Source: an uncultured Thiodictyon sp.
GTDB lineage: Bacteria; Pseudomonadota; Gammaproteobacteria; Chromatiales; Chromatiaceae
DNA length: 60,772 nt
Assembly (NCBI RefSeq): GCF_903946935.1
Contig: NZ_CAJAXH010000316.1
Location: forward strand, 1 to 60,772
Reading direction: 5' to 3'
This document shows positions 6,363 through 33,282 of this stretch, in pieces. The notes under the pieces were generated by a model, which ran no database searches, was not told the origin of the DNA, and saw only the letters and a program-made list of their open reading frames with translations. Each line of letters starts with the position of its first letter. Position 1 is the stretch's first letter. Position numbers and translations under genes: made by a program.

Positions 6363-6392
6363 GCCGGCGAATCATCCGACGGTATCTCAGGA

Positions 6393-11334: not shown

Positions 11335-11337
11335 GAG

Positions 11338-12546
11338 CTATTTCGATCCCTGCGCGGCCGGCGCTGCGGCGTCGGCCTTGGGCTTGTCGGAACCGGCCAC
11401 CGGGACTCCAGCAGGCCCCGCCGCGATCCGCGCCTGGTCCCCCGGCTTGACCTTCTGGAGCCCGGCGACGATCACCTGCTCGCCATCCTTGATGTCACCG
11501 GTGAGGATCCACTCCTTGGGGGTCATACCGCGACTGACGACCCGGCGCTGGGCAACCTTACCGGTGCCGTCCACCACCATTAGATAGGCCCCCTGGGTGT
11601 CCCGGGCCAGGGCCGGCTGGGGCAGCAGGAAGGCCTGATCCACTGTGCCCACGGTGAGGCGCAGGGTGACGAACATCCCGGGCAATAGGACCTTGTCTGG
11701 ATTGGGCAGGGTGGCGCGGAGCGACACCGCGCCGGTGTTCGGGTCCACCGCCAGGTCGGAGAAGTCCAGGGTCCCGGTGCGGGCATAAGGGGTGCCGTCC
11801 GGCAACATTACCTCGACTTGGGGCTCGCTACCGCCCTTGGACCCGGGCGCTGCGGCCTTACGCAGGTCCGCGAGTTCGGCAAGCGACTGGCTGAAGTTGA
11901 CATAGAGCGGGTCGATCCGCTCGATCGTGGTCAGCAGGGTCGCCTCGCCCTGCCCCACCAAGGTGCCCTCGGTCACCAGTGCGCGACCGGCACGACCGGC
12001 AATGGGGGCGGTGACCGTCGCATAGCCCAGATCCAGTCGGGAAGTCTCCAGGTTGGCGCGCGCCTGCTTGACCGCGGCGGCGGTGGTACGCTCAGTCGCC
12101 AGGGCGTTGTCGAGGTCTTGTTGCGAGGTCGTCTTCTTTTCCCGCAACTCCACATAACGCTTGGCGATCAGCGCGGCGTTGGTGGCATCCGCCTCGGCCC
12201 GGACCAGGGCCGCGTCCTGCGCATTGACCTGGGCCTGCAAGCGGGCCGGGTCGATGCGAAACAGGACTTGGCCCGGCTTGACGTCGGTGCCCTCGGTGTA
12301 GACCCGCTCCAACAGGACCCCCGCGACCCGCGCCCTGACCTGCGCCACGCGGGTCGCGGCCAGGCGGCCCACCAACTGCCGGGTGAGCGGTACGGATTGG
12401 GCATGGGCCACCACCACCGACACCTCCGGGGGGGGCTTGCCGGCCCCCGGACCGGCGGCCGGGCTCGACCCGGCCGGCTTGTCGCAACCGCCCACCAGGG
12501 CAATGCCGATCAAGAGCGCGATCCCGCGCGAAACGATGGACTTCAT
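11338..12546 (-). CDS. RND periplasmic adaptor lipoprotein (AcrA/MexA type)
   Basis: A 402-residue membrane-fusion protein. A lipoprotein signal (LLIGIALVGGC) is followed by a Gly/Pro linker, a biotinyl-lipoyl half-motif (RVAQVRARVAGVLLERVYTEGTDVKPGQVLFRID), a helical hairpin, the second lipoyl half (LGYATVTAPIAGRAGRALVTEGTLV) and C-terminal beta-barrel and MP domains (VVSRGMTPKEWILTGDIKDGEQVIVAG). It is the first gene of the two-gene efflux operon and links the pump at 8224-11334 to an outer-membrane channel. The C-terminal 25 residues are Ala/Lys-rich. Confidence 0.95.
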   Translation of the reverse strand: MKSIVSRGIALLIGIALVGGCDKPAGSSPAAGPGAGKPPPEVSVVVAHAQSVPLTRQLVGRLAATRVAQVRARVAGVLLERVYTEGTDVKPGQVLFRIDPARLQAQVNAQDAALVRAEADATNAALIAKRYVELREKKTTSQQDLDNALATERTTAAAVKQARANLETSRLDLGYATVTAPIAGRAGRALVTEGTLVGQGEATLLTTIERIDPLYVNFSQSLAELADLRKAAAPGSKGGSEPQVEVMLPDGTPYARTGTLDFSDLAVDPNTGAVSLRATLPNPDKVLLPGMFVTLRLTVGTVDQAFLLPQPALARDTQGAYLMVVDGTGKVAQRRVVSRGMTPKEWILTGDIKDGEQVIVAGLQKVKPGDQARIAAGPAGVPVAGSDKPKADAAAPAAQGSK

Positions 12547-13124
12547 GGAGCAAACCCCGGACTCAAGGGCGGCGCGCCCCTGGCTGATGACTGAAACGGC
12601 CCGCGGGGAGGCGCCGTGGCGAGCGGCATCCGCTCCCTGGGGGCGGGCCCGCGGCAGGCGCGGGCAAGACCAAGTCGCCTATTCTGCCACTGTCGCGACC
12701 CGCGCGTCTGGAACCTCGACCATCGTGTGGCCGGTGGCCCGCACCTGCGGAGCGATGGTTTGGCACCGGGCCGGGCGACGCACCGCCTCCGCAATGACGC
12801 GCCGCTGGCGTTCAGCCCAGTGGCCCGACCACCGACCCCAACAGGAGCACCGCACTCGCCGCTAGCGTAATCAGAGGAGTTGGGGGTCGATGCGGGTGTG
12901 GATGTCCATGGGTTGCTTGGTGCCTCATTGATCAGCGTGACGCCCAGGAATGAACGCAAATGCGCGGCCAGGCGTCATCAGGGACGGCCAGCGCTGCGGC
13001 GGGCACACTATCAGACATTTGCTAGACTGTGTGGGACAAGGAAGGTGCGAAGGCGTCTGGACCGGGGGTCCCGCCGGACATCGGGCCCCCAACGCCACCT
13101 CCATCGCAGAGCCAAGGCCGCACC
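12547..13124. other. Intergenic region between the efflux operon and the flavoprotein gene
   Basis: It should hold divergent promoters. Open frames in it have no ribosome binding site and read as GC-rich noise. I found no operator-like palindrome that I would defend and no repressor gene. Confidence 0.5.
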
Positions 13125-13658
13125 ATGAAACACCATTATCCCATGCGGTTCGCATGGGCACTGACCGGTTCAGGCCATTATCTTCAGGAATGCATAGGAA
13201 TACTGGAGTCACACCCCGATGTGGACCTGTTTCTCAGCCGTGCCGCCGTCGAGGTACTCGCCATGTACGGCGTCGACCTGAAGCGATTGGGCAAACGCCT
13301 CCCCTGCTACCACGACACCGCCGCCAGCGCCCCCGCGGTCGGCCGCCTCTATCAGGGCGTCTACTCCCGGTTGGTGATCGCGCCGGCCACCGCCAACACC
13401 GTCGCCAAGATGGTTTGCGGGGTCTCGGACACCCTGGTGACCAACCTCTACGCCCAGGCCGGCAAGTGCCGGGTCCCGAGTATCGTCTTCGCCTGCGATA
13501 CCGCACCGGCCTTGGAGACCGCCGCCCCCGGCGGCCCGGTCATGGTCTATCCGCGCCGGATCGACCTGGCGAACGTGGAGCGCCTGCGCGGCTACGAGTA
13601 CACGACCGTGGTGGACAGCATCGCGGCCCTGGTGGCCGCCCTGGCGACGCCCCCATGA
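13125..13658 (+). CDS. FMN flavoprotein, DmrB/archaeoflavoprotein-like
   Basis: A 177-residue protein starting at 13125 (weak AAGG upstream); the in-frame extension to 13029 is Pro-rich and unlikely. FAWALTGSGHYLQECIGIL is the phosphate-binding start of the flavin mononucleotide fold of phosphopantothenoylcysteine-decarboxylase-like flavoproteins. The conserved SRLVIAPATANTVAKMVCGVSDTL segment follows. The subgroup resembles archaeoflavoprotein AfpA and dihydromethanopterin reductase DmrB. It heads a three-gene set with a DHPS-like and a DUF447 protein, a combination known from tetrahydromethanopterin loci of methylotrophs, so a pterin-related redox role is inferred. Confidence 0.75.
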   Translation: MKHHYPMRFAWALTGSGHYLQECIGILESHPDVDLFLSRAAVEVLAMYGVDLKRLGKRLPCYHDTAASAPAVGRLYQGVYSRLVIAPATANTVAKMVCGVSDTLVTNLYAQAGKCRVPSIVFACDTAPALETAAPGGPVMVYPRRIDLANVERLRGYEYTTVVDSIAALVAALATPP

Positions 13659-13668
13659 GGAACCACAG

Positions 13669-15066
13669 GTGAGCGAGCATCTCCTGTTACTCACCGGTCA
13701 ACTCGCCGAGGGTGCGCTGCGCCGCGTCATGGATGGCCTGGACTTGGGAGCGACGACCTGGTCCGTGCGCCCACTCGGGGTCAAGGTGGCCGCCCTGATG
13801 ACCGCGGACCTGATCCGGCGACGGCTCACCGACACCGCGGGGGCGGATCGGATCATCATCCCCGGGCGCTGCCGCGGCGACCTGGAGGCACTAAGCCGGC
13901 ACTTTGGTTGCCCGGTCGAGCGCGGACCGGACGAGCTGATGGACCTGCCGCGTTACTTCGGCCTGGCCGGGCGGGTGCCGGACCTGAGTGCCTATGACGT
14001 GCGCATCTTTGCCGAGATCGTCGAGGCCCCGCGGCTCAGTGTCGAGGCGATTCTGGAGCAGGCCGCCGCCTTCCGCGCGGACGGGGCCGACGTGATCGAC
14101 CTGGGGTGTCTGCCGGATACGCCGTTCGAGCACCTGGATGCCAGCGTACGGGCACTGAAGGCCACGGGCGTCCTGGTCAGCGTGGACTCGATGCAGCCCC
14201 AGGAACTGCTGGCCGGCGGGCGCGCCGGGGCGGATTTTCTGTTGAGCCTCCACGAAGACAACCTCTGGATTGCGGATCGGGTGGCGGCTTGCCCGGTGTT
14301 GGTCCCCAAACGACCCGGCGACCTGCCCTCGCTGGAACGGGCCATGGCGCGGCTGGAGGCGAACGGTCGGCCCTACCTGGCCGATCCCATCCTGGATCCG
14401 ATCCATTTCGGTTTCGCCGACTCGATCATGCGCTACCACCGGCTGCGGCAGTCGCACCCAACGGCGCCGATGCTGATGGGGGTCGGCAATCTCACCGAAC
14501 TCACCGAGGCCGACACCACCGGGATCAACGCCATCCTGATGGGCCTGGTCTCGGAGCTGCGAATCGGTAACATCCTCACCACCCAGGTGAGCCCTCATTG
14601 TCGCAGTGCGATCCGCGAGGCCGACCGGGCACGCCGTATCATGCATTGGGCGCGGCAGGAGTGTAGCCTACCTAGACAGATCGACGGCGGCCTCAGCGCG
14701 ATCCACGAGCGGGCGCCCTACCCTGCCGAGCTCGCAGACATCCGCGCGCTGGCCGCCGCCATCCGCGACCCCAATTACCGCATCCAGGTCAGCGCCGAGG
14801 GCATCCACTGTTTCAACCGGGACGGATTCCATACCAGCGACGATCCCTTTGCGCTCTACCCGCATCTGGGGGTAGAGCAGGACGCCGGACACGCATTTTA
14901 TCTAGGTGTCGAACTCGCCCGCGCCCAGATCGCCCAGCAACTCGGCAAGCGCTATGTCCAGAACCAACCGCTGCGCTGGGGCTGCGTCGTGTCGTCCGCT
15001 GCGACTGATTTGAGCCAGGACCACTCGGCGGGGACGACCCGCCAGAAGCGATCACACAAGCACTGA
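13669..15066 (+). CDS. DUF6513/dihydropteroate-synthase-like protein
   Basis: A 465-residue protein with a GTG start at 13669, GAGG 9 bases upstream and only 10 bases from the preceding stop. An N-terminal domain of about 120 residues precedes a pterin-binding TIM-barrel-like domain: DGADVIDLGCLPD, VLVSVDSMQPQELLAGGRAGADFLLSL, and ADPILDPIHFGF. Archaeal and methylotroph dihydropteroate-synthase-like proteins (MJ0107 type) share this layout and are linked to methanopterin biosynthesis. The terminal 25 residues (SQDHSAGTTRQKRSHKH) are polar and unconserved-looking. Its neighbours on both sides belong to the same known gene set. Confidence 0.8.
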   Translation: MSEHLLLLTGQLAEGALRRVMDGLDLGATTWSVRPLGVKVAALMTADLIRRRLTDTAGADRIIIPGRCRGDLEALSRHFGCPVERGPDELMDLPRYFGLAGRVPDLSAYDVRIFAEIVEAPRLSVEAILEQAAAFRADGADVIDLGCLPDTPFEHLDASVRALKATGVLVSVDSMQPQELLAGGRAGADFLLSLHEDNLWIADRVAACPVLVPKRPGDLPSLERAMARLEANGRPYLADPILDPIHFGFADSIMRYHRLRQSHPTAPMLMGVGNLTELTEADTTGINAILMGLVSELRIGNILTTQVSPHCRSAIREADRARRIMHWARQECSLPRQIDGGLSAIHERAPYPAELADIRALAAAIRDPNYRIQVSAEGIHCFNRDGFHTSDDPFALYPHLGVEQDAGHAFYLGVELARAQIAQQLGKRYVQNQPLRWGCVVSSAATDLSQDHSAGTTRQKRSHKH

Positions 15067-15087
15067 TACCAACGCCAGAATCTTTTC

Positions 15088-15666
15088 ATGATACAAGAAG
15101 TCATCATCACCACCCGCCACCCCGACGGCCGCCCGCACATGGCGCCCATGGGGGTCCGCCACACGGGGCGACACATCGTCATCGCCCCCTTCCGGCCCTC
15201 GACCACCCTGGACAATCTGCTGGCGGGGCGCGCGGCGGTCGTGAATTACACGGACGACGTGCGCGTCTTCGCCGGCTGCCTCAGCGGGCGCAGGGATTGG
15301 CCGCTGGTGGACGCACAGCACGTCCCGGTCTCCCGCTTGGCGGAGTGCCTGGCACATACCGAGGTGGAACTGGAGACGGTCAAAGAGAACCCGGAGCGTC
15401 CCCGCCTGATCTGTCGCCCGGTCTTCTCGCAGACCCACAGCCCATTTATGGGCTTCAACCGCGCCCAGGCCTCGGTGCTGGAGCTGGCGATCCTCGTGAG
15501 CCGACTGGACCGGCTACCAATGGAGCAAGTCCTGCGGGTGATCGACTACTTGCGCATCGCCGTGGACAAGACCGCCGGGCCACGGGAGCAAGACGCCTGG
15601 GACTGGCTGATCGAGCAGGTCGTGGCATTCCAGGCCAATGCCGCCAACCGGCAGGGCGGGACGTGA
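15088..15666 (+). CDS. DUF447 family protein (H4MPT-linked, FMN-fold)
   Basis: A 192-residue protein that opens MIQEVIITTRHPDGRPHMAPMGV, the split-barrel flavin-reductase-like start of DUF447, and continues TTLDNLLAGRAAVVNYTDDVRVFAGCLSG, the conserved block in which a phosphate-binding region is expected. A helical C-terminal domain includes MGFNRAQASVLELAILVSRL. DUF447 genes sit in the tetrahydromethanopterin clusters of aerobic methylotrophs and in archaea. It follows the DHPS-like gene by 21 bases, so the three genes form one operon. Confidence 0.8.
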   Translation: MIQEVIITTRHPDGRPHMAPMGVRHTGRHIVIAPFRPSTTLDNLLAGRAAVVNYTDDVRVFAGCLSGRRDWPLVDAQHVPVSRLAECLAHTEVELETVKENPERPRLICRPVFSQTHSPFMGFNRAQASVLELAILVSRLDRLPMEQVLRVIDYLRIAVDKTAGPREQDAWDWLIEQVVAFQANAANRQGGT

Positions 15667-15953
15667 CCGGCCTTGGATGACGGACAGAGCGCTCCTCAGA
15701 TGTGCCTTTCAGCAAGGTTGAGAGTTGAATTTCCTAGACGTTCAGGGCAAAATCTCGCGGGACGTCGGCGGCAGGGTCTTGCCCCACGGCGAGACGACCA
15801 GCGCAGTGGTGGGGACGGCGTTCAGCGGTTTTTCGCTGCGCCGACCCGGACGTCCAACCACTCACCTGGGATACCTACAGGAACAAGAGCCTAGGGCACC
15901 TGCCCGGTATCGTCTCGGCAACATGATCACTGACAAGACAGAAGGGGCGGACC
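15667..15953. other. Intergenic region
   Basis: About 290 bases after the three-gene operon with no supported gene. It contains no clear terminator hairpin and no recognised regulatory motif. Confidence 0.4.
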
Positions 15954-16259
15954 ATGGCTGAATTCTTTGCAAGCGGGCACAGCATCGAATTGGTCCTGTT
16001 CCTGATTGTCCTTGAGGCGATCGTGCTCATGGTGCTGTGGCGGATGCGCCGGTGCCCCTTGTCGCCGGCCGCAACCCTGATGATTCTCGCCCCCGGCACC
16101 TGTCTGTTGCTGGCCTCGCTCGCAGTCATCAATGGCGCCGGCTGGGTTTGGATCTCATCCCTGTTCCTGGTTGCGCTCGCCATCCACTTGGTCGATCTGC
16201 GGCAACGGTGGCTACGTGAGGCGCGTCACGACGCGGCCAAAGGTGTGCAAGGAAACTAG
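15954..16259 (+). CDS. Small three-helix membrane protein
   Basis: A 101-residue hydrophobic protein. The ATG at 15954 follows AAGGGGCGGACC. Three membrane segments are visible at about residues 10-29 (IELVLFLIVLEAIVLMVLW), 42-62 (LMILAPGTCLLLASLAVING) and 65-81 (VWISSLFLVALAIHLVDL), ending in a basic tail. I do not recognise a family. It lies 68 bases before the SDR gene on the same strand and may be co-transcribed with it. Confidence 0.65.
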   Translation: MAEFFASGHSIELVLFLIVLEAIVLMVLWRMRRCPLSPAATLMILAPGTCLLLASLAVINGAGWVWISSLFLVALAIHLVDLRQRWLREARHDAAKGVQGN

Positions 16260-16327
16260 CTTTTCTCGGCCGCCGGGGGCGCCGCGCCGGCCCCTGAAGC
16301 AATCGATTCGTTGGAGATCAATTGGTG

Positions 16328-17254
16328 ATGGCCTGGACCACTGTCAACATCCCGTCGCAAAGCGGGCGGCTCGCCGTCGTCACCGGAGCCACCGGCGGGC
16401 TGGGTTATGAGGAGGCACTCGCGCTGGCGGCGGCGGGTGCCGAGGTCGTACTGGCGGGCCGCAACGAGCACAAGGGCGCTGACGCGCTGGCACGCCTGCG
16501 CGCGGCCCATCCTGGTGCAACAGTGCGCTTCGAGCAACTCGACCTGGCCTCGCTCGACTCGGTCGCCGCCTGTGCGCAGAGGCTGCTCGCCGCGGGACAG
16601 GGTATCGACCTGCTCGTCAACAATGCCGGGATCATGGCGCCGACGCAACGGCAATTGACGGTCGACGGCTTTGAGCTACAGTTCGCCACCAACTATCTCG
16701 GCCATTTTGCCCTGACCGCCCAGTTGCTACCGCTGCTGCGGCGCGTCCCCGGCGCGCGCGTGGTCAACGTCAGCAGCCTGGCGGCGAACTTGGATTCGAT
16801 CGATCTCACCGACCTCCAGTCGGAGCGAAGCTATGTCCCGTTCCAGACCTATGGCATGACCAAGCTGGCGCTGGTAATGTTCGCATTGGAATTGCAGCGC
16901 CGCAGCGAGGCCGCAGGCTGGGAAATTGATGCCATGGCAGCCCATCCAGGCTATGCCCGCACTGACATCATCGGCAACGGACCCGCCGCGCGCGGCATAC
17001 GCGGGGCGCTATGGCGCATCACGAAGCCGTTCTTACTTCCGTTCAGCCCGCCGGCCGAGCTAGCCGTATTGCCGATCCTGTTCGCCGCGACCTCGCCGGA
17101 TGCGCAAGGCGGCGAGTTTTACGGACCGACGGGGTGGCGCGAGCTCAAGGGTCCAACCGGAACGGCCACGATGCCGGCCCGGGCATTGGACGACTCAGCC
17201 GCGGCCGGTCTCTGGGAGACATCGGAACGACTGGCCGGGGTGAGCTTCGCGTGA
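16328..17254 (+). CDS. Short-chain dehydrogenase/reductase
   Basis: A classical SDR of about 308 residues. The cofactor motif TGATGGLGYEEALALAAAGAEVVLAGRN, the NNAG motif in LLVNNAGIM, the catalytic Ser in VNVSSLAA and the pair YGMTK are all present, so it should be an active NAD(P)-dependent oxidoreductase. The sequence style (AHPGYARTDI, then a variable substrate loop) is that of retinol-dehydrogenase or light-dependent-protochlorophyllide-reductase-like SDRs of unknown substrate. TTG (16322), GTG (16325) and ATG (16328) are all in frame behind GGAG at 16313, and ATG is preferred. No pathway partner is adjacent. Confidence 0.9.
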   Translation: MAWTTVNIPSQSGRLAVVTGATGGLGYEEALALAAAGAEVVLAGRNEHKGADALARLRAAHPGATVRFEQLDLASLDSVAACAQRLLAAGQGIDLLVNNAGIMAPTQRQLTVDGFELQFATNYLGHFALTAQLLPLLRRVPGARVVNVSSLAANLDSIDLTDLQSERSYVPFQTYGMTKLALVMFALELQRRSEAAGWEIDAMAAHPGYARTDIIGNGPAARGIRGALWRITKPFLLPFSPPAELAVLPILFAATSPDAQGGEFYGPTGWRELKGPTGTATMPARALDDSAAAGLWETSERLAGVSFA

Positions 17255-17330
17255 GGGGCGTCGGGTCCGACGCAATCGTCCGTGCCCCACGCGCGAACGC
17301 ATGAGCTCGGGCGACCGAGTACCGTGAAAT

Positions 17331-17391
17331 TCGCGCCGGGAGCGCGCTCCAAATCTCCCCCTCCTATTAGGGGATGGCGGGGGTAGGGGAA
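17331..17391. repeat. Dispersed repeat, copy 1
   Basis: TCGCGCCGGGAGCGCGCTCC (17331-17350) followed by AA and a C-rich/G-rich hairpin. The first 22 bases are identical to 40441-40462, where the same C/G hairpin follows. GGAGCGCGCTCC is itself a perfect palindrome. It lies between convergent genes. Confidence 0.8.
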
Positions 17392-17445
17392 CGGCCAAGG
17401 CGCCCGCCACATTCATCATTCGGGATGATGCGGGCGCCTTGGCCG

Positions 17446-18165
17446 TTAAGCGGCCTGTGCCGAAGCGCTATCTGTCACAAAATCTCTTTCTGATATAGTA
17501 AGTTGTGACAAAACGACCGTCTCGCGCAGGTAGCGGCCAGCGCTTAAGACTTGGGCAATGAAGTCAGCCAGATCGACCCGGCTGACGGTTCGCTTGCGCC
17601 GATCGCCCGACGTGCTGGCCACCCAGCGCCCGGTGGCGGCACCGTCGGTCAAGCCAACCGGCTGGATCAGCGTCCAGTCCAGGCCACTGTCCTTGACCAG
17701 CTTCTCCTGCCGCTCCTTGTCGGCCAACTGCTCGCCCAGCTGCAGCACGCGGAACCACAGCCTGAACACTGGCGACAACCGCTCGCGCGTATCGCCAACG
17801 CCGTAGGACGTGATGCAGATCAAGCGCGAGACCGAGGCGGTCGCCATCGCGGCAATCACGTTGGCCGTGCCGACCTCACAGATGTTGGGCGGGGTGTTTC
17901 GTTTGACTCCCAGCTTCGCCCCCAGCTTCAGCACGACGGGGTTGAGTGAATCACCCAGGCTGACCACGACCGCGTCCTGACCGGCCACGGCGGACGCCAC
18001 ATCGGCGGCGTTCAGGGCATCGCCCACGATCACGGAAATCCCATTGTACGCGGGGAGTTTCGCGCGTTCGCGTCCAAAGGCGGTCACCTGATGTCCCGCG
18101 GCCAGCAGGGTCAACGCCACCGCGCGCCCGGCCTTGCCGGTCGCGCCGAAAACAACGACTTTCAA
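17446..18165 (-). CDS. NAD(P)-binding protein, NmrA/atypical SDR (TTG start)
   Basis: TTG at 18165 is chosen as the start: AGGAGG lies 8 bases upstream and the protein then begins at the nucleotide-binding strand (LKVVVFGATGKAGRAVALTL). The in-frame ATG at 18237 would add 24 residues in front of that site without a ribosome binding site. The 239-residue product has DAVVVSLGDSLNP, ICITSYGVGDTR and WTLIQPVGLTDGAATG, matching the same group as the gene at 5689-6303. It lacks the classical SDR Tyr-Lys pair, and the substrate is unknown. Confidence 0.85.
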   Translation of the reverse strand: MKVVVFGATGKAGRAVALTLLAAGHQVTAFGRERAKLPAYNGISVIVGDALNAADVASAVAGQDAVVVSLGDSLNPVVLKLGAKLGVKRNTPPNICEVGTANVIAAMATASVSRLICITSYGVGDTRERLSPVFRLWFRVLQLGEQLADKERQEKLVKDSGLDWTLIQPVGLTDGAATGRWVASTSGDRRKRTVSRVDLADFIAQVLSAGRYLRETVVLSQLTISERDFVTDSASAQAA

Positions 18166-18545: not shown

Positions 18546-19019
18546 ATGTATGCATTTTTTAAATCCATTCATATTTTAGGCTTTGTGTTAATGGCCGGAA
18601 ATGTCACGGTGACCGCCCTCTGGAAGGTGTTTGCCGATCGCACGAGCAAGACACAAATCATGGCGTTCGCCCAGTGGCTGGTGACTGTGACCGACTTTTC
18701 ATTTACCCTATCCGGCGGTTTTTTAATGGTTGTAGGCGGCTACGGCGCTGCCTACGTCGGTCACTTGGCGTTGTTCACAACCCCCTGGCTCGTCCTCGGG
18801 CAACTCATGTTGGCGGTGGCGGGGGCCGTGTGGCTGGGCATTCTCGTGCCGATTCAGATCAGGCAGGCACGCTGGGCGCAGGATTTTGCGATCATCGGCG
18901 AGGTGCCGGCGGCGTATCGGAAAGACAGCCGCACCTGGCTGGTCTGGGGCCTGCTGTCGACGGTACCCTTGCTGGCTGGCCTGTATTGGATGGTGGCCAA
19001 GCCGATGCATTACTGGTGA
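18546..19019 (+). CDS. DUF2269-like integral membrane protein
   Basis: A 157-residue protein with four predicted membrane helices: residues 5-22 (FKSIHILGFVLMAGNVTV), about 50-72 (FTLSGGFLMVVGGYGAAYV), 79-100 (LVLGQLMLAVAGAVWLGILV) and 134-150. The early HILGF and the TRT...W pattern fit DUF2269, a small membrane family sometimes next to heme or carotenoid genes. The local base composition near its start is AT-richer than its surroundings. It is 79 bases upstream of crtC on the same strand and probably co-transcribed, but its job is unknown. Confidence 0.7.
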   Translation: MYAFFKSIHILGFVLMAGNVTVTALWKVFADRTSKTQIMAFAQWLVTVTDFSFTLSGGFLMVVGGYGAAYVGHLALFTTPWLVLGQLMLAVAGAVWLGILVPIQIRQARWAQDFAIIGEVPAAYRKDSRTWLVWGLLSTVPLLAGLYWMVAKPMHYW

Positions 19020-19098
19020 CACGAGGCGCAAGACCGCTTGGCGAGATGCTGTTGAAAGCACTATCGGTACACTCTTTTACTGCATCGGAGATGGCGTT

Positions 19099-20118
19099 AT
19101 GCGAGGAATAGACGGTCTGCCACCCGGGGCCGGGGCGGGCCATAGCGACGAGATCGGGTTGGCTGGCGGCACCGCGCCTGGTTGCGGCCCGCTCTTCGAC
19201 GCGCCGGTGGCGCCCGGTGGCTATCTTTGGTGGTATGTGGATGGACTCAGCGACGACGGACGCCATGGGATTACGCTGATCGCGCAGGTCGGCAGTTGCT
19301 TCTCCCCCTATTACGCCCGGGCGCGGCGGCGCGGCGACAGTGATCCGCTGAACCATAACTCGCTGAATGTTGCGCTTTACGGGGAGGTCAAGGGCTGGAG
19401 CATGACCGAGCGGGGCCGCTCGGCGCTGCGGCGCGATGCCTCCCGGCTGGAGATCGGGCCGAGCGCACTGTCCTGGGACGGCACCTGCCTGACCATCCAG
19501 ATCGACGAGGTGACGGTGCCGGTGCCCAAGCGTATTCGCGGCACGGTCAAGCTGTATCCGCGCACGGTGGCCGGCCAGCCGTATTTCCTCGATGGTGCGG
19601 GGCACCATTGCTGGGCACCGATCGCTCCGGGCGCACGCGTCGAGGTGCAGCTCGACCGGCCGGCCTTGCGCTGGTCGGGCCACGGCTATCTCGATTCCAA
19701 CTGGGGCAACGAGCCGCTGGAGAAGGCGTTCCGCTACTGGGAGTGGTCGCGCGCCGAGCTGAGGGATGGCGGTACCGCAGTCCTCTATGACGCGGCACGG
19801 CGCGATGGGCACCGCACCGAGTTGGGCCTGCACTTCGATCCGGCTGGCGGCGTGGCACGGATCGAGATTCCGCCGCACGCGAAACTGCCGACCACCGCCT
19901 GGCGGATGAAGCGCGGCACGCGGGTGGACCCGCAACAGACGGCACGCGTGACCAAGACGCTGGAGAACACGCCGTTTTACACGCGCTCCGTACTGGCGAC
20001 GCATCTGCTCGGCGAGTCGGTTACCGCGATGCACGAGAGCGTGTGCCTCGACCGTTTCAGCACGCGCTGGGTGCAAACGCTGCTACCGTTCCGGATACCG
20101 CGGCGGGCACGGGACTGA
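19099..20118 (+). CDS. crtC: Carotenoid 1,2-hydratase (hydroxyneurosporene synthase)
   Basis: A 339-residue protein matching CrtC, which adds water to the psi-end of acyclic carotenoids on the way to spirilloxanthin- or rhodopin-type pigments. Diagnostic parts are PVAPGGYLWWYVDGLSDDGRHGITLIAQVGSCFSPYY (residues about 36-72), DPLNHNSLNVALYG, and WSGHGYLDSNWGNEPLEKAFRYWEWSRA. The ATG at 19099 begins just before the domain; the longer frame upstream overlaps the DUF2269-like gene and is rejected. CrtD and CrtF are not in the window. Hydroxylated acyclic carotenoids are normal in Chromatiaceae. Confidence 0.92.
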   Translation: MRGIDGLPPGAGAGHSDEIGLAGGTAPGCGPLFDAPVAPGGYLWWYVDGLSDDGRHGITLIAQVGSCFSPYYARARRRGDSDPLNHNSLNVALYGEVKGWSMTERGRSALRRDASRLEIGPSALSWDGTCLTIQIDEVTVPVPKRIRGTVKLYPRTVAGQPYFLDGAGHHCWAPIAPGARVEVQLDRPALRWSGHGYLDSNWGNEPLEKAFRYWEWSRAELRDGGTAVLYDAARRDGHRTELGLHFDPAGGVARIEIPPHAKLPTTAWRMKRGTRVDPQQTARVTKTLENTPFYTRSVLATHLLGESVTAMHESVCLDRFSTRWVQTLLPFRIPRRARD

Positions 20119-20836: not shown

Positions 20837-20920
20837 GATTAGAAAAAATTTGAAAAAAGATTGGCGCGGCCACTGCCGCAGTACTAATTAAGTACTAAAG
20901 AGTACTAAGAAATACTAGGC
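20837..20920. promoter_or_regulatory. AT-rich direct repeats, probable DNA unwinding element
   Basis: An A-rich stretch (AGAAAAAATTTGAAAAAAGA) precedes four copies of GTACTA/ATACTA at 20881, 20892, 20902 and 20912, spaced about one helical turn apart. In this GC-rich window, such AT-rich repeats next to iterons and a DnaA box fit the melting region of a plasmid oriV. Confidence 0.65.
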
Positions 20921-20982
20921 GGCTCGGCGCGCGAAAAAAATAACGAAAAAGCAGAAGCTTACGGCGCTATTTTTTTTTGGTC

Positions 20983-22008
20983 CGTGGGAAAAGAGACGGA
21001 GTTTCGTGGGAAGGAGGACGGAAGAGCGTGGGAAGAAGGACGAGTCTAACGGGGAAAGAGGACGGTGCTCCGTGGGAAGGTGGGCGGTGCCTCTGTGGAT
21101 AAGTGGGTGTATCGGCCACTGCTGCGTGGGAAAAGGGACGGTGGAATCTGCCCTTCTCGATTGACTGGATTCCCCGATTGCTTGGGTTCTCGTTGCGATC
21201 ATGGGCGGTTACGAGGCTCGATGGTGCGCCCGACGCGGCGGGAAGCCCGTGATCTTTGGCGTGGAAGACGCGTCCATAAGGCATTGTCAAATATATAAAT
21301 GCTTCTGTTTGGTGGGAAAAGGGACGGTGCTAGGCGGTGAGGGAAGAGTCCGCGCTCGTCGGTGCTTGGGATGAACGATTGACTGAGATTGGGCTGATCG
21401 GGGCGTCCGTTTTGGCGATGACTGTGGGAAAGAGGGCGGCGTTCAACCGCGGTCGAGGGGCCGGGTCTGGGTGGCGAGCGGGGCGAGCAATGACGGCCTG
21501 ATCGGTTCGCGGGCAGAGGATTGAGGTGGTGGGGACGTTGGTCGGGGGTGCGCTCAACGGCTGCGTGGGCAGCAAAAGCGGCAGTGGGGAGGGGAAAACA
21601 GGATGGGGGCAGGGGGCGAAAGAGAAGGGCGGGGGCGTATGTCTTGGCCGGGCGCGTGGGCTGATGTCGGCGGGGTGGGTGCTACGTGGGCTGGAAAATG
21701 CAACCGGAAAAACAAAGTGATGGCTGGTAAAGCGTAACTATCTTGTGGGTTATCAGTCCGCGTCGGATCATCCGCACAAAGACTGTACAGAAGATGCGGG
21801 GAAATTCGTGGGAAAGAGGACGGTCGTAGGGCCTTTCCAGGGGGCAGACGCAGGTCTGGGTGCTCAGTGCCTGTCCGCACACTCGCTAGCGTGGGAAAGA
21901 AGACGGTGCGTCATTCCCCTGGCAGAGATGGGCGGTGGCGACGTGAGTCGCGAGCGGTCAGGGCTGACCCGGTGTCGGAACATGCGCCTTTCGTGGGAAA
22001 AGGGGCGA
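20983..22008 (+). repeat. Iteron array of a plasmid-type replication origin (oriV)
   Basis: Eleven copies of a 16-17-bp unit, all in the same orientation, start at 20983, 21005, 21027, 21050, 21071, 21125, 21311, 21423, 21807, 21890 and 21992. The consensus is CGTGGGAAAAGGGACGG with purine variation at positions 9-12. The first five are spaced about 22 bases (two helical turns). No gene in this kilobase is convincing. The array adjoins the initiator gene at 22031-23125, and iterons of this kind bind the initiator of theta-replicating plasmids. Confidence 0.85.
21094..21102 (-). promoter_or_regulatory. DnaA box
   Basis: TGTGGATAA, the exact complement of the consensus DnaA box TTATCCACA, lies between the fifth and sixth iterons. 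DnaA boxes accompany iterons in many plasmid origins. Confidence 0.75.
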
Positions 22009-22030
22009 CGCAACGGCTGATCCACGGGGC

Positions 22031-23125
22031 TTATGTTTGGTGCAGGAAGGTGACTTCCAATACCCAAGGCGTCCGGCGACCGGTTCCAGTAATCGCAAAT
22101 TGTTCCAGGAACTGAAGTGTCTTGAGTCGCTCAAGCTGCTGGATGGCCTCGCGCTTGCGGTCGCGCGGCTCGCCGAAGGCGCCGATGCTGGCGAAGAATT
22201 CGATGAGCGGAATGGAGAAGGTCCGATTGCTGCGTTGGCTGGCGAGTGAGCGGTGCATAGCCTTGCCCAACGGGGAAAGCTGGCGGCGGATGTCGAAGTC
22301 CAGGAAGGTGCGGTACTCCTCCAGCCACTGCGAGATCAAGGGGTGAAACTGGACGTAGTAACAGGCGTCCTCGGCGGTCACGACATACTCGATAAAGATC
22401 AGCTGAACCGGTTTGCCGTGGAAGGCGTTGTCACCCTTCGGCTTCTGAAACTTGAGCGTGATCGCGGCCAGGTTGTCCATGCTCTCGCGGCGCTTGGCGA
22501 TCGCCCTCCCCCCCCAACCGCGGGGTGGCGTGTAGCCCTGAATCACGGATTCGAGTTGGGATATCAGGCAGTACAGCGCATGCACGCGCACCGGATTGCT
22601 CGGGGCCAGTCCGCTGGTGGCGATGCTCGGTGGGGCGGCGATGGGTAGGCGATCGGCGGGCCCGGTCATGCCCTGCTGGCGCATGTTCATCAGGCCGAAC
22701 AGGGTGTCTTCGTCGTAGACCGTCAGCGCTGGTCCGGCCTTGAACACCCCTCCCCCGTCCCAGCGTGACTCCAAGGTAATCCAGTCCGACGCCGCGGCCA
22801 GCTCGCGGGCGGTACTGCGTTGGATCGGGGGAAAGAGGGGCAGGCGGGTCAAGGGCGTCGGGTACTCGGCGGAGGGAAAGAGTTCAAACTGTTCGACCCC
22901 CCGCTCGCGCAGAAAACGCTCCAGCCGGGCATTGGCCTCGGCGATGACCTTCGGTCCGGGGGCGCCGCTGCTGGTGGGGCGCGCCGACCGACCGCGGGGG
23001 TTGGCGGCCGGGGGTGCGGGTGCGTCAGGTTCCTTTTTGGCGGTGCGTTCCCGCGCCTGGCGCTCCAGACGTGCCAGGGTGCGCTGCAGGTCCCTGGTGC
23101 CTCCGTCGGGTGAGTCATCATGCAT
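22031..23125 (-). CDS. Plasmid replication initiator protein (RepA-like)
   Basis: A 364-residue protein (ATG at 23125; a GTG at 23170 is the alternative, neither with a good ribosome binding site). A charged, Pro/Ala-rich N-terminal arm of about 90 residues is followed by a folded part with TARELAAASDWITLESRWDG, ALTVYDEDTLFGLMNMRQQG, VRVHALYCLISQLE and, near the C-terminus, PLIEFFASIGAFGEPRDRKREAIQQLERLKTLQF. Tandem winged-helix-like modules with a C-terminal helix-turn-helix are usual for iteron-binding initiators. The exact family (RepA or TrfA type) is not recognised. The call rests mainly on context: eleven iterons next to its 3' end and divergent parAB at its 5' end. Confidence 0.7.
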   Translation of the reverse strand: MHDDSPDGGTRDLQRTLARLERQARERTAKKEPDAPAPPAANPRGRSARPTSSGAPGPKVIAEANARLERFLRERGVEQFELFPSAEYPTPLTRLPLFPPIQRSTARELAAASDWITLESRWDGGGVFKAGPALTVYDEDTLFGLMNMRQQGMTGPADRLPIAAPPSIATSGLAPSNPVRVHALYCLISQLESVIQGYTPPRGWGGRAIAKRRESMDNLAAITLKFQKPKGDNAFHGKPVQLIFIEYVVTAEDACYYVQFHPLISQWLEEYRTFLDFDIRRQLSPLGKAMHRSLASQRSNRTFSIPLIEFFASIGAFGEPRDRKREAIQQLERLKTLQFLEQFAITGTGRRTPWVLEVTFLHQT

Positions 23126-23195
23126 GGGATGTTGGGAAAAACGTGAAATTTCAGCCCATAAGATAGACACCTGAACCCGGTTTCGTCAAGTCGTG

Positions 23196-23235
23196 ATTGG
23201 CCAAATGTGAAGATAGTGCTCTAATTAGGCCAAAT
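23196..23235. promoter_or_regulatory. Repeated motif between rep and parA, candidate operator
   Basis: ATTGGCCAAAT (23196-23206) and TTAGGCCAAAT (23225-23235) are near-identical direct repeats centred 29 bases apart in the divergent rep-parA promoter region. ParA proteins with an N-terminal DNA-binding domain often repress their own operon, so these are candidate operators. Confidence 0.45.
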
Positions 23236-23258
23236 CCATTTTTTGGGAGCCGAAGCTG

Positions 23259-24416
23259 ATGCGTGCGAAGCGATCGATCGAAGACCTCCTGGGTCGTATC
23301 CAAGGGGTGCGGGATCAACTCAAGGATTACAACCTGGCGCCAGACCATGTGAAGCGCGATACCCGCCTTTATGCGATGCGTGAGGCGGCGGAGTTGATTG
23401 GCCGCAGCGATCAGACCATCCGTGATGCGGAGGCGGAGGGACGACTCCCGACCCCGGAGATCGGGCGTAACGGCAAACGGGTCGGCTACACCCTGGCCCA
23501 GATCAACTCGGCGCGTGATGTGCTTGGCACCCGTCTGCGGCGCGCGGAGGATGAGGAAACGGTGGTCATCGGGTGCCAATCCTTCAAGGGTGGGTCGGGC
23601 AAGACGACGACGGCGGTTCACCTGACTCAATACCTGGCGCGGCAGGGGCTGCGGGTGTTGCTGGTGGATTGTGATCCGCAGGCGTCCGCGACGGCGATCT
23701 TCGGTTATGTCCCGGAGGCGGACGTGGGGCCGGACGAGACGCTCCTGCCGTACCTGGAGGGGGATCGAACCGATCTCGCCTACGCGGTGCGTCCGACCTA
23801 CTTTGATGGGGTCTATCTGGTGCCGGCCAATCTGCATCTGTATCGCTCCGAATACACACTGGCCGCGGGAACCGCCAAGCTGGACCGCCTGAAAGATGGG
23901 ATCGACACGATTGCGGTGAACTTTGACGTGGTGGTGATCGACCCACCGCCCTCGCTCGGCATGATCAGCCTGAACGCCTTGTACGCCAGCAACGCGCTGA
24001 TCATCCCGATGTCGCTTGGGCTCCTGGACTTTTACAGCACCGTGTCGTTCATCCAGATGCTCAATGAGACGCTGGATGTGATCGAGCGTCGGGTGGGGAT
24101 CGTGCGCTCCAAGTTCGTCAAGGTGCTGATGACGCGGATGAACGAAGGCAAACCTGTGCATATCCAACTGGCGGATCATCTCCAGGCGAGCTTCGGCAGT
24201 TATTTGATGCAGGCACGGATGCACGACTCGGCCGCGGTGGACAACGCGGGCGTCATGATGAGAACGGTCTACGAGCTGGAAAAGACGTCGGCAAACAGAA
24301 AGACCCTGAACCGGGCGACGATGCTGTTTGACCTGGTGAATGCCGAGGTCCTGAATCTCGTGCGGGCGACCTGGCCGAGCCACCACAAGGCGCTGCGCGC
24401 CCAAGGGCTCATGTAA
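23259..24416 (+). CDS. parA: Plasmid partition ATPase ParA (type Ia)
   Basis: A 385-residue P-loop ATPase that would segregate the replicon by forming gradients on nucleoid DNA together with ParB. An N-terminal MerR-like helix-turn-helix covers about residues 36-80 (LYAMREAAELIGRSDQTIRD). It is followed by the deviant Walker A motif FKGGSGKTTTAVHL (109-122), Walker A' VLLVDCDPQASAT (133-145) and Walker B VVVIDPPPSLGMI. The N-terminal DNA-binding domain marks the type Ia class of plasmid ParAs, which also autoregulate, unlike chromosomal ParA/Soj. GGGAG lies about 12 bases upstream of the ATG. parB follows by 22 bases. Confidence 0.92.
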   Translation: MRAKRSIEDLLGRIQGVRDQLKDYNLAPDHVKRDTRLYAMREAAELIGRSDQTIRDAEAEGRLPTPEIGRNGKRVGYTLAQINSARDVLGTRLRRAEDEETVVIGCQSFKGGSGKTTTAVHLTQYLARQGLRVLLVDCDPQASATAIFGYVPEADVGPDETLLPYLEGDRTDLAYAVRPTYFDGVYLVPANLHLYRSEYTLAAGTAKLDRLKDGIDTIAVNFDVVVIDPPPSLGMISLNALYASNALIIPMSLGLLDFYSTVSFIQMLNETLDVIERRVGIVRSKFVKVLMTRMNEGKPVHIQLADHLQASFGSYLMQARMHDSAAVDNAGVMMRTVYELEKTSANRKTLNRATMLFDLVNAEVLNLVRATWPSHHKALRAQGLM

Positions 24417-24438
24417 TCAATTCGGTCTGGGGAAGTAC

Positions 24439-25452
24439 ATGGCAGCTAAAGGTTCTACTGGTGAAATGTTCAAGGCGCTCGCGGGCGGCCCCGTGAAGGC
24501 GAGTGAAATGGCGCCGATGATGTCGCCGGACGTGCCGCAACGGCAGGTCTCGGCACCGAGCGTTGGGATTCTGGCCGGGCGTGAAGGGGCGATTTGGGAG
24601 GTGTCATCGGGGAAGAAGATTACGCGGGTGGTGCGGCGCGTGGACCCCGATCGCTGCCGTATCTGGGCGCGTCACAACCGTCGCTACGATCTGCTGTCAC
24701 CCGAATCCTGTGGGGACCTGATCGAGGGCTTCAGACAGCAAGGCGGCCAGGAGTTTCCGGCGATCGTGCGGCGGATCGTCGGTGGCGGTGGGCATGAATA
24801 CGAGGTGATCTCCGGGGCGCGCCGGCATTGGACGGCGCGGTTCCTGAAATATGACTTCCTGATCGAGGAGCGGGAACTGACTGACCTGGAGGCCTTTCGG
24901 CTGTCGGATATCGAGAACCGACATCGGTTAGACCTCAGCGATTTTGAGCGGGCGATGGATTATCTGCATGCGCTGGACCTGTATTACGAAGGCAGCCAGA
25001 AGCAGATGGCGATGAATCTTGAACGCTCGGAAGGTTGGTTGAGCCGCTATCTGGACCTGGCGCGACTGGAGTCCGCAGTGGTGGCGGCTGTACGCGACGT
25101 GCGAGAAATCACGGTCAATCAGGCGCGGGTGATCAAGCCGCTGCTGGGTGGCAAAACGCGCGCGGCGGTGATCGAAAAGGCGCAGGAACTTGCGGCTTGG
25201 CCGGAGAAACCCAGTGCGCCCGACCTCGTGCGGATACTGACCAGCGCGGCAGCAGAACCGAAAGGTATCAGGGCCACGGCGACCCTGGAGACGGTGTCGG
25301 CAAAGGATACCGGTAAGGTGTGTGCCGTGGTTCGTCGGCATGGCCGAGGGGGGTTGGTGATCCAGGTGGACGCCAAGAGCGGGGCGGACGCGGCGGAGGT
25401 GGTGGCCGCGTTGACTGCAATCGTCGAACGTCACTATGCGCCGTCCAAGTAG
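24439..25452 (+). CDS. parB: Plasmid partition protein ParB
   Basis: A 337-residue centromere-binding protein. The N-terminal arm (MAAKGSTGEMFKALAGGPVK) resembles the ParA-contact region of plasmid RepB/ParB proteins. The ParB/Srx-like domain includes VISGARRHWTARFL and SDIENRHRLDLSDFERAMDY, and the helix-turn-helix follows (GSQKQMAMNLERSEGWLSRYLDLARL). The C-terminal part carries the dimerisation domain. It forms a two-gene operon with parA and should load on parS-type sites in the module. Confidence 0.9.
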   Translation: MAAKGSTGEMFKALAGGPVKASEMAPMMSPDVPQRQVSAPSVGILAGREGAIWEVSSGKKITRVVRRVDPDRCRIWARHNRRYDLLSPESCGDLIEGFRQQGGQEFPAIVRRIVGGGGHEYEVISGARRHWTARFLKYDFLIEERELTDLEAFRLSDIENRHRLDLSDFERAMDYLHALDLYYEGSQKQMAMNLERSEGWLSRYLDLARLESAVVAAVRDVREITVNQARVIKPLLGGKTRAAVIEKAQELAAWPEKPSAPDLVRILTSAAAEPKGIRATATLETVSAKDTGKVCAVVRRHGRGGLVIQVDAKSGADAAEVVAALTAIVERHYAPSK

Positions 25453-25472
25453 CTTGGCCTGTTTGCGGAGGC

Positions 25473-25492
25473 CAATTGTCAACTGACAATTG
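25473..25492. promoter_or_regulatory. Palindrome CAATTGTCA-AC-TGACAATTG after parB
   Basis: Perfect 9-bp inverted repeat with a 2-base centre, 20 bases after the parB stop. It is not followed by a T-run, so it is more likely a protein-binding site (candidate partition site) than a terminator. Confidence 0.5.
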
Positions 25493-25628
25493 TTATGCAA
25501 CATATTGGAAAATATGAAGTTATTTTGAAAATTGCGACCTTCTGCGAAGGGCCGGACAGCAGACGGAAAGTCATGCTGTTGCCCCTCTGCACTGCCCCTT
25601 CGCGGTCGCCCGGAAAGGGTGCGCTATC

Positions 25629-25655
25629 CCTGCCCAGGGTGTTTCCCTGGGCAGG
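25629..25655. terminator. Hairpin between convergent parB genes
   Basis: CCTGCCCAGGG (25629-25639) and CCCTGGGCAGG (25645-25655) form an 11-bp perfect stem with a 5-base loop between the ends of the two converging ParB genes. It is a probable bidirectional terminator. Confidence 0.65.
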
Positions 25656-25657
25656 TC

Positions 25658-26224
25658 TCAGCTCCGTTCTATCCCAAGGCGTCCGAGTATCGCCTCAAGC
25701 GCATTCCGGTCGGCAAAGGTCAGGATAATCCGTCCCCGCTGCTGGTTCTGTCTGCACTCGATCAACGCCGGCGCCCCGACCACTGCGCTAATCCGCTCTT
25801 CCAGTCGCATCGGATCAAACCCCAGAACCCGGCCTCCCCGCCCGTTCCGGCTTGCGGCGACCTCCTCGGCTGTGCGCACTGACGCACCCCGCTGTACGAG
25901 CAGCTCGACCATTGCGTCTTGCTCGGCCCCGGCAATAGCCGCTAACGCCTTGCCATGCCCGAGCGTCAGGTCCCCCCGCCGCAATGCCTCACGGGCTGGC
26001 GCGCGCAGCCGCCTGACCATACGTAAGCCGTGCGACAAGGTCGTGTAATTCACGCCCAATCTCTGCGCGACATCGCGTTGTGTGTAGCCGGGATTGCGAC
26101 CGCGCTCGTCCTCGATTTGCCGCAGCGCCACCTCCGCCCAGTCAAGCGGGTCTTGGTCAGGACGATCACCGCCACCGCCGCCCTGAGCCCGATGCTCAAT
26201 ATCAACTCTTGTTTCGCCGATCAT
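25658..26224 (-). CDS. ParB-like protein lacking the N-terminal domain
   Basis: A 188-residue protein with the central helix-turn-helix of ParB/KorB (YTQRDVAQRLGVNYTTLSHGLRMVRRL, about residues 47-73) followed by LTLGHGKALAAIAGAE, the conserved post-HTH helix of ParB, and a C-terminal dimerisation-like segment. The N-terminal ParB/Srx CTPase domain (GxxR box) is absent, so the protein could bind its site but not clamp or spread as ParB does. It converges on parB and starts 22 bases from a CACGTG-centred palindrome. It could be a degraded second partition gene or a dedicated regulator. Confidence 0.75.
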   Translation of the reverse strand: MIGETRVDIEHRAQGGGGGDRPDQDPLDWAEVALRQIEDERGRNPGYTQRDVAQRLGVNYTTLSHGLRMVRRLRAPAREALRRGDLTLGHGKALAAIAGAEQDAMVELLVQRGASVRTAEEVAASRNGRGGRVLGFDPMRLEERISAVVGAPALIECRQNQQRGRIILTFADRNALEAILGRLGIERS

Positions 26225-26245
26225 CCGATTCTCGTGCCCCTAAGT

Positions 26246-26259
26246 TTGCCACGTGGCAA
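26246..26259. promoter_or_regulatory. CACGTG-centred palindrome, candidate parS/operator
   Basis: TTGCCACGTGGCAA is a perfect 14-bp palindrome just upstream of the truncated parB-like gene. The CACGTG core is the core of chromosomal parS sites (TGTTTCACGTGAAACA), though the flanks differ. Confidence 0.6.
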
Positions 26260-26318
26260 TCATAGCCGAAAGGCCTTGTTGGTTCGTAGTAGGGCGGCCG
26301 CCCGACCGCGGTTCAGGG

Positions 26319-26336
26319 CGTGGCAAGTCGTGGCAA
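26319..26336 (+). promoter_or_regulatory. Two CGTGGCAA half-sites
   Basis: CGTGGCAA occurs at 26319-26326 and again at 26329-26336, exactly 10 bases apart and therefore on the same helix face. Each copy equals half of the 26246-26259 palindrome, so they are likely extra binding sites for the same protein. Confidence 0.5.
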
Positions 26337-26640: not shown

Positions 26641-27201
26641 ATGTCGGAGAACACAACGCGGTCGGGCGCGGGGGGCCACCCCGGGGCCTCAACCTTGGCA
26701 CGCCTCGGTGCTGAGGTCCCGCACGCCGATTTTTGGATCTTTGTCGGTCTGTTAGTCCTTGCCATCGGCGGCGCTGCCGTCTCCCAAGCGGAGGACAGCG
26801 GCGGCCGTCTCTATTGGCTGGCCCTGGTCCTGGTCTATGGCCTGGTCAGCGTCGCGCGGAGTTGGTTCCAGGCCAAAGATCAGGGCGGGCCTGTATGGCC
26901 CATGGTCCGGTCCCAGGTCTTCCATTGGCTGGGCGCCCTGGTTGCGATCCAGATCGTCCTCCTGTTCGAGAGCAGTGGCATGACGGATCGTGGTCCGGCC
27001 GCGGACTACACCCTGCTGGTCCTCGCCCTGAGCGTCTTCCTCGCCGGGGTCCATTTCAATTGGACCTTCATGCTGCTGGGCGGCATCCTCGCCGCCGTTG
27101 CGGTTGCTCTGCAAGAATTGGAGCAGTTGACGGTTTACCTGGTGATCGTACCGCTCGCCTTACTGGCCATTTGGGTCGTCTACAAGCGCAAGTTCGGTTA
27201 G
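26641..27201 (+). CDS. Five- to six-helix membrane protein
   Basis: A 186-residue integral membrane protein. Hydrophobic segments lie at about residues 31-48 (FWIFVGLLVLAIGGAAVS), 58-72, 94-110 (LGALVAIQIVLLFESS), 122-138 (YTLLVLALSVFLAGVHF), 140-158 (LLGGILAAVAVAL) and 163-182. The N-terminal 30 residues are polar. I do not recognise a family. It ends 35 bases before the ClC gene on the same strand, which suggests a two-gene operon and perhaps an accessory role in ion homeostasis. Confidence 0.7.
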   Translation: MSENTTRSGAGGHPGASTLARLGAEVPHADFWIFVGLLVLAIGGAAVSQAEDSGGRLYWLALVLVYGLVSVARSWFQAKDQGGPVWPMVRSQVFHWLGALVAIQIVLLFESSGMTDRGPAADYTLLVLALSVFLAGVHFNWTFMLLGGILAAVAVALQELEQLTVYLVIVPLALLAIWVVYKRKFG

Positions 27202-32832: not shown

Positions 32833-32884
32833 CGTCGCGGCGGGGGCCGCTCCTACGCCGTAGGAGCGGCCCCCGGCCGCGACG
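32833..32884. repeat. REP-like hairpin, second copy
   Basis: Arms 32833-32855 and 32861-32884 are complementary apart from one single-base indel, with loop CGCCG. It shares the core TAGGAGCGGCCCC and the flank GGCCGCGACG with the hairpin at 6310-6362. Confidence 0.9.
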
Positions 32885-33065
32885 GTTTTAGTTACTCTGG
32901 ATCGCGTTCAGCTAGAGCCCTGTGTTATGCGGGCACGGGGTAGCGCGCCGCATCGGTCGCTGGCACAGCGTTGCGTCCAAACTGATTTGGCTTATGTGGC
33001 GCGTGAAAGTCAGGCCGGGGAGGTGCCTGATCTTGCTGGCATGGCCTTAGCCTAAAGAGTAGTTG

Positions 33066-33093
33066 TCACGCCAAGGCGCCAAGCTCGCCAAGG
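33066..33093 (-). repeat. Dispersed repeat (CTTGGCG-rich), copy A
   Basis: The reverse complement reads CCTTGGCGAGCTTGGCG followed by CCTTGGCGTGA, one mismatch from 52865-52892. A shorter inverted copy lies at 33167-33186 (TCTTGGCGCCTTGGCGTGAG), so the two halves could pair. Confidence 0.8.
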
Positions 33094-33282
33094 CTTTTCA
33101 GTGCGTTATCAGTATTGCGCCAGTTCCCCGGAGGGTGATTGGATAGTGACTCTACCCGATTGTATTTCTTGGCGCCTTGGCGTGAGCAATTCCCGGGAGG
33201 AGTTGAATGACTCGCCGAAGCCGCTGAGAGCTGGCAGGGCATGCGGATGAGCGGATGAATCCGCGGATACCCAGAAATGACA

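Follow-up and report, generated by a model that had tools for sequence, protein, structure and literature searches.

Thiodictyon syntrophicum Cad16T has, on its plasmid pTs485 (484,824 bp), the first plasmid-borne photosynthesis gene cluster (PGC) described in a purple sulfur bacterium (Luedin 2018, PMC5944118). The passages of that paper dealing with the plasmid give it as circular and without RNA or housekeeping genes, while its PLSDB row gives it as linear; one passage puts the puf genes on the chromosome, while the plasmid record and the present search put pufL and pufM on pTs485. In the Roseobacter clade, PGCs are located on extrachromosomal replicons, which codon usage was used to class as plasmid-like or chromid-like, the latter for 8 out of 13 (PMC6739100); PMC6052148 also concerns PGC-bearing extrachromosomal replicons of this clade. 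Chromid pSymB of Sinorhizobium meliloti carries an essential tRNA-Arg together with engA, and part of its DNA was moved there from the chromosome (excerpt of PMC4207669), and its replication is of RepABC type (excerpt of PMC11837538). The locus described here is located on contig C316 of an uncultured Thiodictyon sp. (GCF_903946935.1, NZ_CAJAXH010000316.1), which was analysed completely (60,772 bp) and is referred to below as the window. Within its photosynthesis gene region lies a plasmid-type block of replication and partition elements, which most likely serves, still active, for the replication and partition of a secondary replicon of pTs485 type that carries the photosynthesis genes. This replicon has probably become indispensable to the host, a chromid.

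The window shares with pTs485 the initiator, iterons, parAB genes, candidate parS, and PGC. Initiator, ParA, and ParB are 83%, 94%, and 78% identical, respectively, and on pTs485 the three genes are in the same divergent order across the start of the record, with the PGC after them. Non-overlapping open reading frames (ORFs) of the window with matches on pTs485 number 39 (72% of bases), and 31 of them are strong matches, defined as at least 60% identity over at least 60% of the ORF length. As a control, four stretches from elsewhere in the genome (71.3 kb, dnaA contig included) gave six pTs485 matches, one of them strong; a stretch of contig C154 gave one match and no strong one. The matching ORFs map from 2.0 to 60.5 kb of the window, with gene order rearranged between the two molecules. 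When DNA of window 1-20 kb was compared with the genome of Cad16T, the best blocks were on pTs485 (C3) and the tRNA was on the chromosome (C1), where the weaker matches are paralogues and short repeats. Long Cad16T matches to window 26.6-36.5 kb are also on pTs485, the chromosomal ones being short repeats; a CLC channel gene had no long match in this comparison. The genes pufL and pufM are single-copy, on C316 in this genome and on pTs485 in Cad16T. The G+C content of the window is 64.6%, compared with 61.1-65.7% in four other stretches of the genome. With the orthologous order of rep, parA, and parB, the shared iterons and DnaA box, and the shared wider gene content, the window is, as judged from sequence comparison, a rearranged pTs485-type replicon.

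The gene order in the window is crtC, then the replicon unit, then pucC, bch, and puf genes, as the first-pass annotation of this DNA had described. The unit thus stands between crtC and the rest of the PGC, while in pTs485 crtC is inside the cluster at 29 kb, an arrangement which would fit the insertion of a small plasmid next to crtC, between it and the puf and bch genes of a chromosomal PGC. Such an insertion is very improbable, because pTs485 matches make up the greater part of the window to either side of the origin: the genes to the left (2-17 kb) and to the right (26.6-60.5 kb, with gaps) are pTs485 genes. Furthermore, all four related loci have the DUF5368 gene and a cytochrome b gene close to the unit, and three of the four have the RND pump genes there as well. 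Insertion of a plasmid into a chromosomal PGC, one of the two possibilities raised in the first-pass annotation, was rejected on the ground of these pTs485-type flanks; the other, a PGC on a plasmid or chromid, gained support from the orthologous unit on pTs485 together with the proportion of strong ORF matches.

All the elements that had been named for the unit were found between 20,866 and 26,259: AT-rich repeats, a DnaA box, eleven iterons, an initiator, parAB of probable type Ia, a second ParB, and palindromes. The putative DNA unwinding element (20866-20918) consists of a GCGGCCACTGCCGC box and four TACT(AA/AG) repeats 10-11 bp apart. In the alignment of six homologous origins, the box at 20866-20879 has no variation, and three of the four repeats (20882-20918) read TACTA(A/G) in all six, the third repeat keeping TACT alone in two. 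Eleven iterons GTGGGAARRRGGACGG with at most two mismatches, putative initiator-binding sites, are located on the forward strand at 20984-22008. They start at 20984, 21006, 21028, 21050, 21072, 21126, 21312, 21424, 21808, 21891, and 21993, the first five being in tandem with a 22 bp period, and none was found at the same threshold elsewhere in the 60.8-kb window. In a first-order Markov control, 300 resampled versions of the 1.2-kb region had 0.04 iterons on average and never more than one, so that chance occurrence of the 11 observed is ruled out. The sole perfect DnaA box of the window, TTATCCACA, is at 21094-21102 on the reverse strand. At least one such box occurred in 12 of 100 shuffles, which makes it weak evidence alone; a perfect box is found in all six homologous origins. 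Iterons number 11 in the window, 10 in pTs485, and 11, 10, 11, and 11 in the four further origins (L023-L026). Features common to the six aligned origins are the GCGGCCACTGCCGC box, the TACT repeats, the tandem iteron array, and CTGTGGATAAG. As to a switch of GC skew at about 20-22 kb, the signal is weak, the skew being flat up to 18 kb and rising afterwards, and was not used as proof.

The predicted replication initiator gene is an intact ORF for 364 aa on the reverse strand (22031-23125). Its product had no family match in Pfam, NCBIfam, PHROG, and PDB sequences, the three PDB-sequence matches being unrelated (E 0.38-2.1). It matches none of the Pfam families, Rep_3 (PF01051) included, and one distant relative has a Rep3_N match under the cut-off (E 0.022). 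In the comparison with plasmids proposed in the first-pass annotation, by tblastn against 72,556 plasmid records, seven records matched, and pTs485 was the best with 83% identity over 98%. Distant relatives with 27-32% identity are on plasmids of Methylomonas, Bermanella, and Tenderia; on the Bermanella plasmid a relative is annotated as 'replication initiation protein', and in Tenderia and Methylomonas the gene is likewise divergent from parAB. The AlphaFold model has a mean pLDDT of 43, and C-terminal residues from about 281 to 364 alone look winged-helix-like when secondary structure is inspected by eye (ten-residue pLDDT means 57-86); therefore, no claim on the fold is made. The divergent promoter region between rep and parA (23171-23258) contains GATTGGCCAAA and TAATTRGGCCAAATC, both found in all six replicons, and is a putative operator. 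Two more initiator paralogues with 45-46% identity are coded in this genome at C154:14436-15518 and C23:1903-2967, which suggests up to three replicons of this initiator family per cell. An ORF on C23 resembles DNA polymerase IV by eye, and such a gene is also near the locus on plasmid pTs417 (NZ_CP020371.1). The initiator homologue of pTs417 is merely a fragment (160072-160473), and this plasmid may replicate by a different initiator.

ParA (23259-24416, forward strand) is a SopA/RepA-type ATPase, probably of type Ia, with 91-97% identity in all five related replicons. It matched the SopA model with E 2.6e-69 and the RepA model with E 1.1e-81, with scores under the equivalog cut-offs, and its N-terminus has a weak MerR-like helix-turn-helix (HTH) match below the Pfam cut-off. 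ParB (24439-25452, forward strand) has a SopB-type HTH and is 73-92% identical in the five replicons. The unit is like SopAB of the F plasmid and type Ia systems in the SopA/RepA-matching ParA, its HTH-like N-terminus, and the SopB-type HTH of ParB, but differs in origin and initiator. On the 3' side of parB, palindrome CAATTGTCAACTGACAATTG (25473-25492), with an 18-bp core unchanged in all six replicons, is a candidate parS for ParB. A second ParB-like protein of 188 aa (25658-26224, reverse strand) has the ParB HTH and C-terminal domain, but not ParB_N; it is coded in two of the six replicons, those of this genome and of the metagenome-assembled genome (MAG) D14_bin-1308 (G118), with 60% identity. 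Located 21 bp upstream of it, palindrome TTGCCACGTGGCAA (26246-26259) is a candidate parS or operator, which in the alignment is perfect in two origins and has one mismatch in three and three mismatches in one. Compared between this genome and that MAG, the genes have dN/dS values of 0.187 for rep, 0.041 for parA, and 0.085 for parB, with no internal stops, compared with 0.080 for pufL and 0.059 for pufM. The value of 0.340 for the second ParB gene points to weaker constraint. The genes rep, parA, and parB are under current purifying selection between the two species, and a dead integrated plasmid is disfavoured by their low dN/dS.

A tRNA-Arg(CCG) at 1830-1906 on the reverse strand is the sole Rfam hit of the window and its sole tRNA. 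The genes dnaA and rRNA, chromosome markers that the first-pass annotation would have counted against a plasmid or chromid, are thus not in the window: dnaA lies on contig C311, and Rfam gave no rRNA. In the whole assembly (321 contigs, 5,995,245 bp, completeness 99.96%), 44 tRNA-family hits were found, of which ARAGORN typed 42, and one of these, that of the window, was typed as Arg(CCG). The earlier remark that this tRNA would favour a chromid or an integrated plasmid over a dispensable plasmid was thereby borne out. The other Arg tRNAs typed are TCT, CCT, and ACG, and two weak hits uncalled by ARAGORN are a fragment on C269 and C20:9343. If the remaining Arg tRNAs are ACG, TCT, and CCT, decoding of CGG requires the CCG anticodon; CGG codons number 11 in dnaA and 14 in parB, and are also present in the other five genes counted. 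In Cad16T, tRNA-Arg(CCG) is on the chromosome contig only (1,092,398), without a match on pTs485, and no tRNA was found by ARAGORN in 11 stretches of pTs485. This plasmid thus differs from the window replicon in that neither a tRNA nor a second ParB was found on it, as well as in gene order. A gene annotated ftsZ is located on pTs485 at 261090-262181.

A phage-like element is predicted to have entered the 3' end of tRNA-Arg(CCG) in this genome, because the 3' 50 nt of the tRNA are repeated identically at C269:4653-4702, beside a phage-type ORF (C269, 103-3648) with a DarB-like PHROG match (E 3e-135). One end of this phage- or plasmid-like mobile element is window 1-1829, where ORF 2-1774 has no Pfam match, and the other is C269:1-4652. 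Beyond the element, C269 carries pTs485-type genes (pterin dehydratase, TRAP transporter, 120-127 kb region). It also has a short patch of three genes with orthologues on the Cad16T chromosome, located there at 3.55 and 4.33 Mb. On contig C192 of D14_bin-1308, an uninterrupted tRNA lies between window-type genes and C269-type genes, the patch included. In both species, the only tRNA-Arg(CCG) found is within a stretch flanked on both sides by pTs485-type genes, while strong pTs485 matches around the tRNA of Cad16T, G107 of the same genus, Lamprocystis, and Chromatiaceae ppb02 (G117) number 0, 0, 0, and 1, respectively. The two replicon-borne tRNAs read CAGCTGG and those of the latter four genomes CAGATGG, which is consistent with one move. 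In ppb02, two tRNA-Arg(CCG) copies are 7 kb apart (C221:47223-47299 and 54533-54609), a pair that is possibly due to insertion of an element.

The same surroundings could be explained by integration of a pTs485-type replicon into the chromosome in an ancestor of this species and D14_bin-1308, in which case the tRNA would be simply chromosomal and the replicon genes would be passengers or a second origin. The chromosome-type genes beside the tRNA on C269 and the MAG contig speak for it (on the Cad16T chromosome, the tRNA is at 1.09 Mb and the orthologues of these genes are at 3.55 and 4.33 Mb), and a draft cannot display separate circles, so that integration with rearrangement is possible. Yet the tRNA with its patch of about 4 kb, derived from three distant Cad16T loci, is flanked on both sides by pTs485-type genes rather than by a chromosomal insertion site, rep, parA, and parB are still under purifying selection, and all origin elements are kept. 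Chromosomal integration is therefore considered unlikely.

A secondary photosynthesis replicon that is dispensable, with a second tRNA-Arg(CCG) copy missed by the draft, would agree with the favoured explanation in everything save the chromid step. The draft of 321 contigs leaves room for it, and ppb02 has its two copies on one contig; however, a single copy among 42 typed tRNAs in a draft of such completeness argues against it, as does the MAG, which has one 100% tRNA match, on the replicon-type contig, and four others of 72-81%, untyped. A dispensable replicon is thus quite unlikely. The replicon is more probably indispensable, because it carries the only tRNA-Arg(CCG) gene found; it combines plasmid-type replication and partition genes with a core gene that is chromosomal in a relative (tRNA-Arg(CCG) of Cad16T).

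The unit is found in six lineages belonging to the Thiodictyon/Lamprocystis group. A pattern-based scan of an 84,980-species collection gave eight loci in four assemblies, namely two Thiodictyon MAGs (89% and 84%), Lamprocystis purpurea (80%), and ppb02 (80%), together with four paralogous loci (42-49%). Among 116 genomes of the family, three had an initiator match, all from a single genus (this genome, Cad16T (G079), and G107). The contigs of ppb02 on which pufLM and the initiator were found are probably one and the same, because both are 91,536 bp long. According to record titles, the coverage of the PGC replicon contig of ppb02 is 658 and that of the paralogous replicon contig 256.

Several observations weigh against the favoured explanation. 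The molecule is not closed, being part of a 321-contig draft without read depth, and the 42 typed tRNAs include no Ile(GAT) or Ala(TGC), so that a second Arg(CCG) could also be missing from the draft. Window positions 1-2 kb, most of 27.2-30.2 kb (CLC channel gene), and 56.1-59.5 kb have no pTs485 match, and about 33-35 kb matches weakly. The function of the initiator is predicted from synteny and distant plasmid relatives, and its model is poor. On pTs485, cumulative GC skew gives a weak signal, with a minimum at 468,820, about 12 kb off the iterons. In Lamprocystis, rep and PGC are on different contigs. Finally, in the assembly of G035, a genome from this genus, pufLM is present while the initiator has no match; G035 may have lost the replicon, moved the PGC, or have an assembly gap. 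The genome of G035 is 3.0 Mb, with a pTs485-like pufLM order.

Around the unit, pTs485-type genes to the left of the origin (2031-17254) code for alpha/beta hydrolases, an FAD oxidoreductase, an RND pump, DUF6513 and DUF447 proteins, and an SDR, with 73-86% DNA identity. The crtC-like carotenoid 1,2-hydratase gene (18886-20118, forward strand) is 50% identical to the pTs485 stretch so annotated. To the right, the conserved neighbour coding for a DUF5368 membrane protein (26641-27201, forward strand) is followed by the PGC at 31276-55771, with a pucC-like gene, light-harvesting genes, bchCXYZ, pufLMC, and crtBI. The gene bchO (59558-60505, reverse strand) is 74% identical to pTs485 294310-295242. 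Short repeats at 6305-6369, 17320-17448, 32833-32888, and 33054-33196, each of which recurs on the Cad16T chromosome, from several times up to several dozen times, suggest miniature or REP-like elements.

From the anatomy and conservation of the unit, its working can be outlined as follows. The divergently encoded initiator would bind the eleven iterons and, together with DnaA of the host bound to the one conserved box, would open the AT-rich TACT-repeat element for theta replication, the copy number being set by the iterons and the initiator level. The copies would be shared between daughter cells by the ATPase ParA and by ParB, the site of action of ParB being the palindrome next to its gene. 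The tRNA-Arg(CCG) and a few neighbouring genes would have moved from the chromosome to the replicon; loss of the replicon would then leave CGG codons unread, which would make it a chromid and tie photosynthesis to viability.

Sinorhizobium meliloti is an alphaproteobacterium, the tRNA-Arg of pSymB has the anticodon CCG, and pSymB is not known to carry a PGC. Being of plasmid type and yet indispensable because of an essential tRNA-Arg, pSymB is the closest parallel; its essentiality was established by experiment, while that of the window replicon is inferred. The Roseobacter PGC replicons are likewise extrachromosomal, but alphaproteobacterial, and the main text of PMC6739100 does not mention 'tRNA' or 'Thiodictyon'. 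Searches of the open-access literature found nothing joining purple sulfur bacteria with chromid or Chromatiaceae with iteron, and only PMC5944118 naming pTs485; among articles on photosynthesis gene cluster, chromid, and tRNA, none was on Chromatiaceae by title. Judged by this literature, the only tRNA-Arg(CCG) found being borne on a PGC replicon is apparently new.

With moderate confidence, we propose that, in one lineage of Thiodictyon, the plasmid with the photosynthesis genes turned into an obligatory, chromosome-like replicon through capture of the only tRNA-Arg(CCG) of the cell, convergently with pSymB and with an initiator family absent from the curated libraries searched. Present in six lineages, the replicon unit looks like a lasting genome feature rather than one plasmid. 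Cad16T with its closed genome would represent the state before, and this species and D14_bin-1308 the state after, a natural plasmid-to-chromid transition. The origin of essentiality of a secondary replicon thus becomes testable in a gammaproteobacterium, by way of a kind of gene also known from pSymB. If this proposal is true, phototrophy in this lineage would no longer be lost through plasmid loss.

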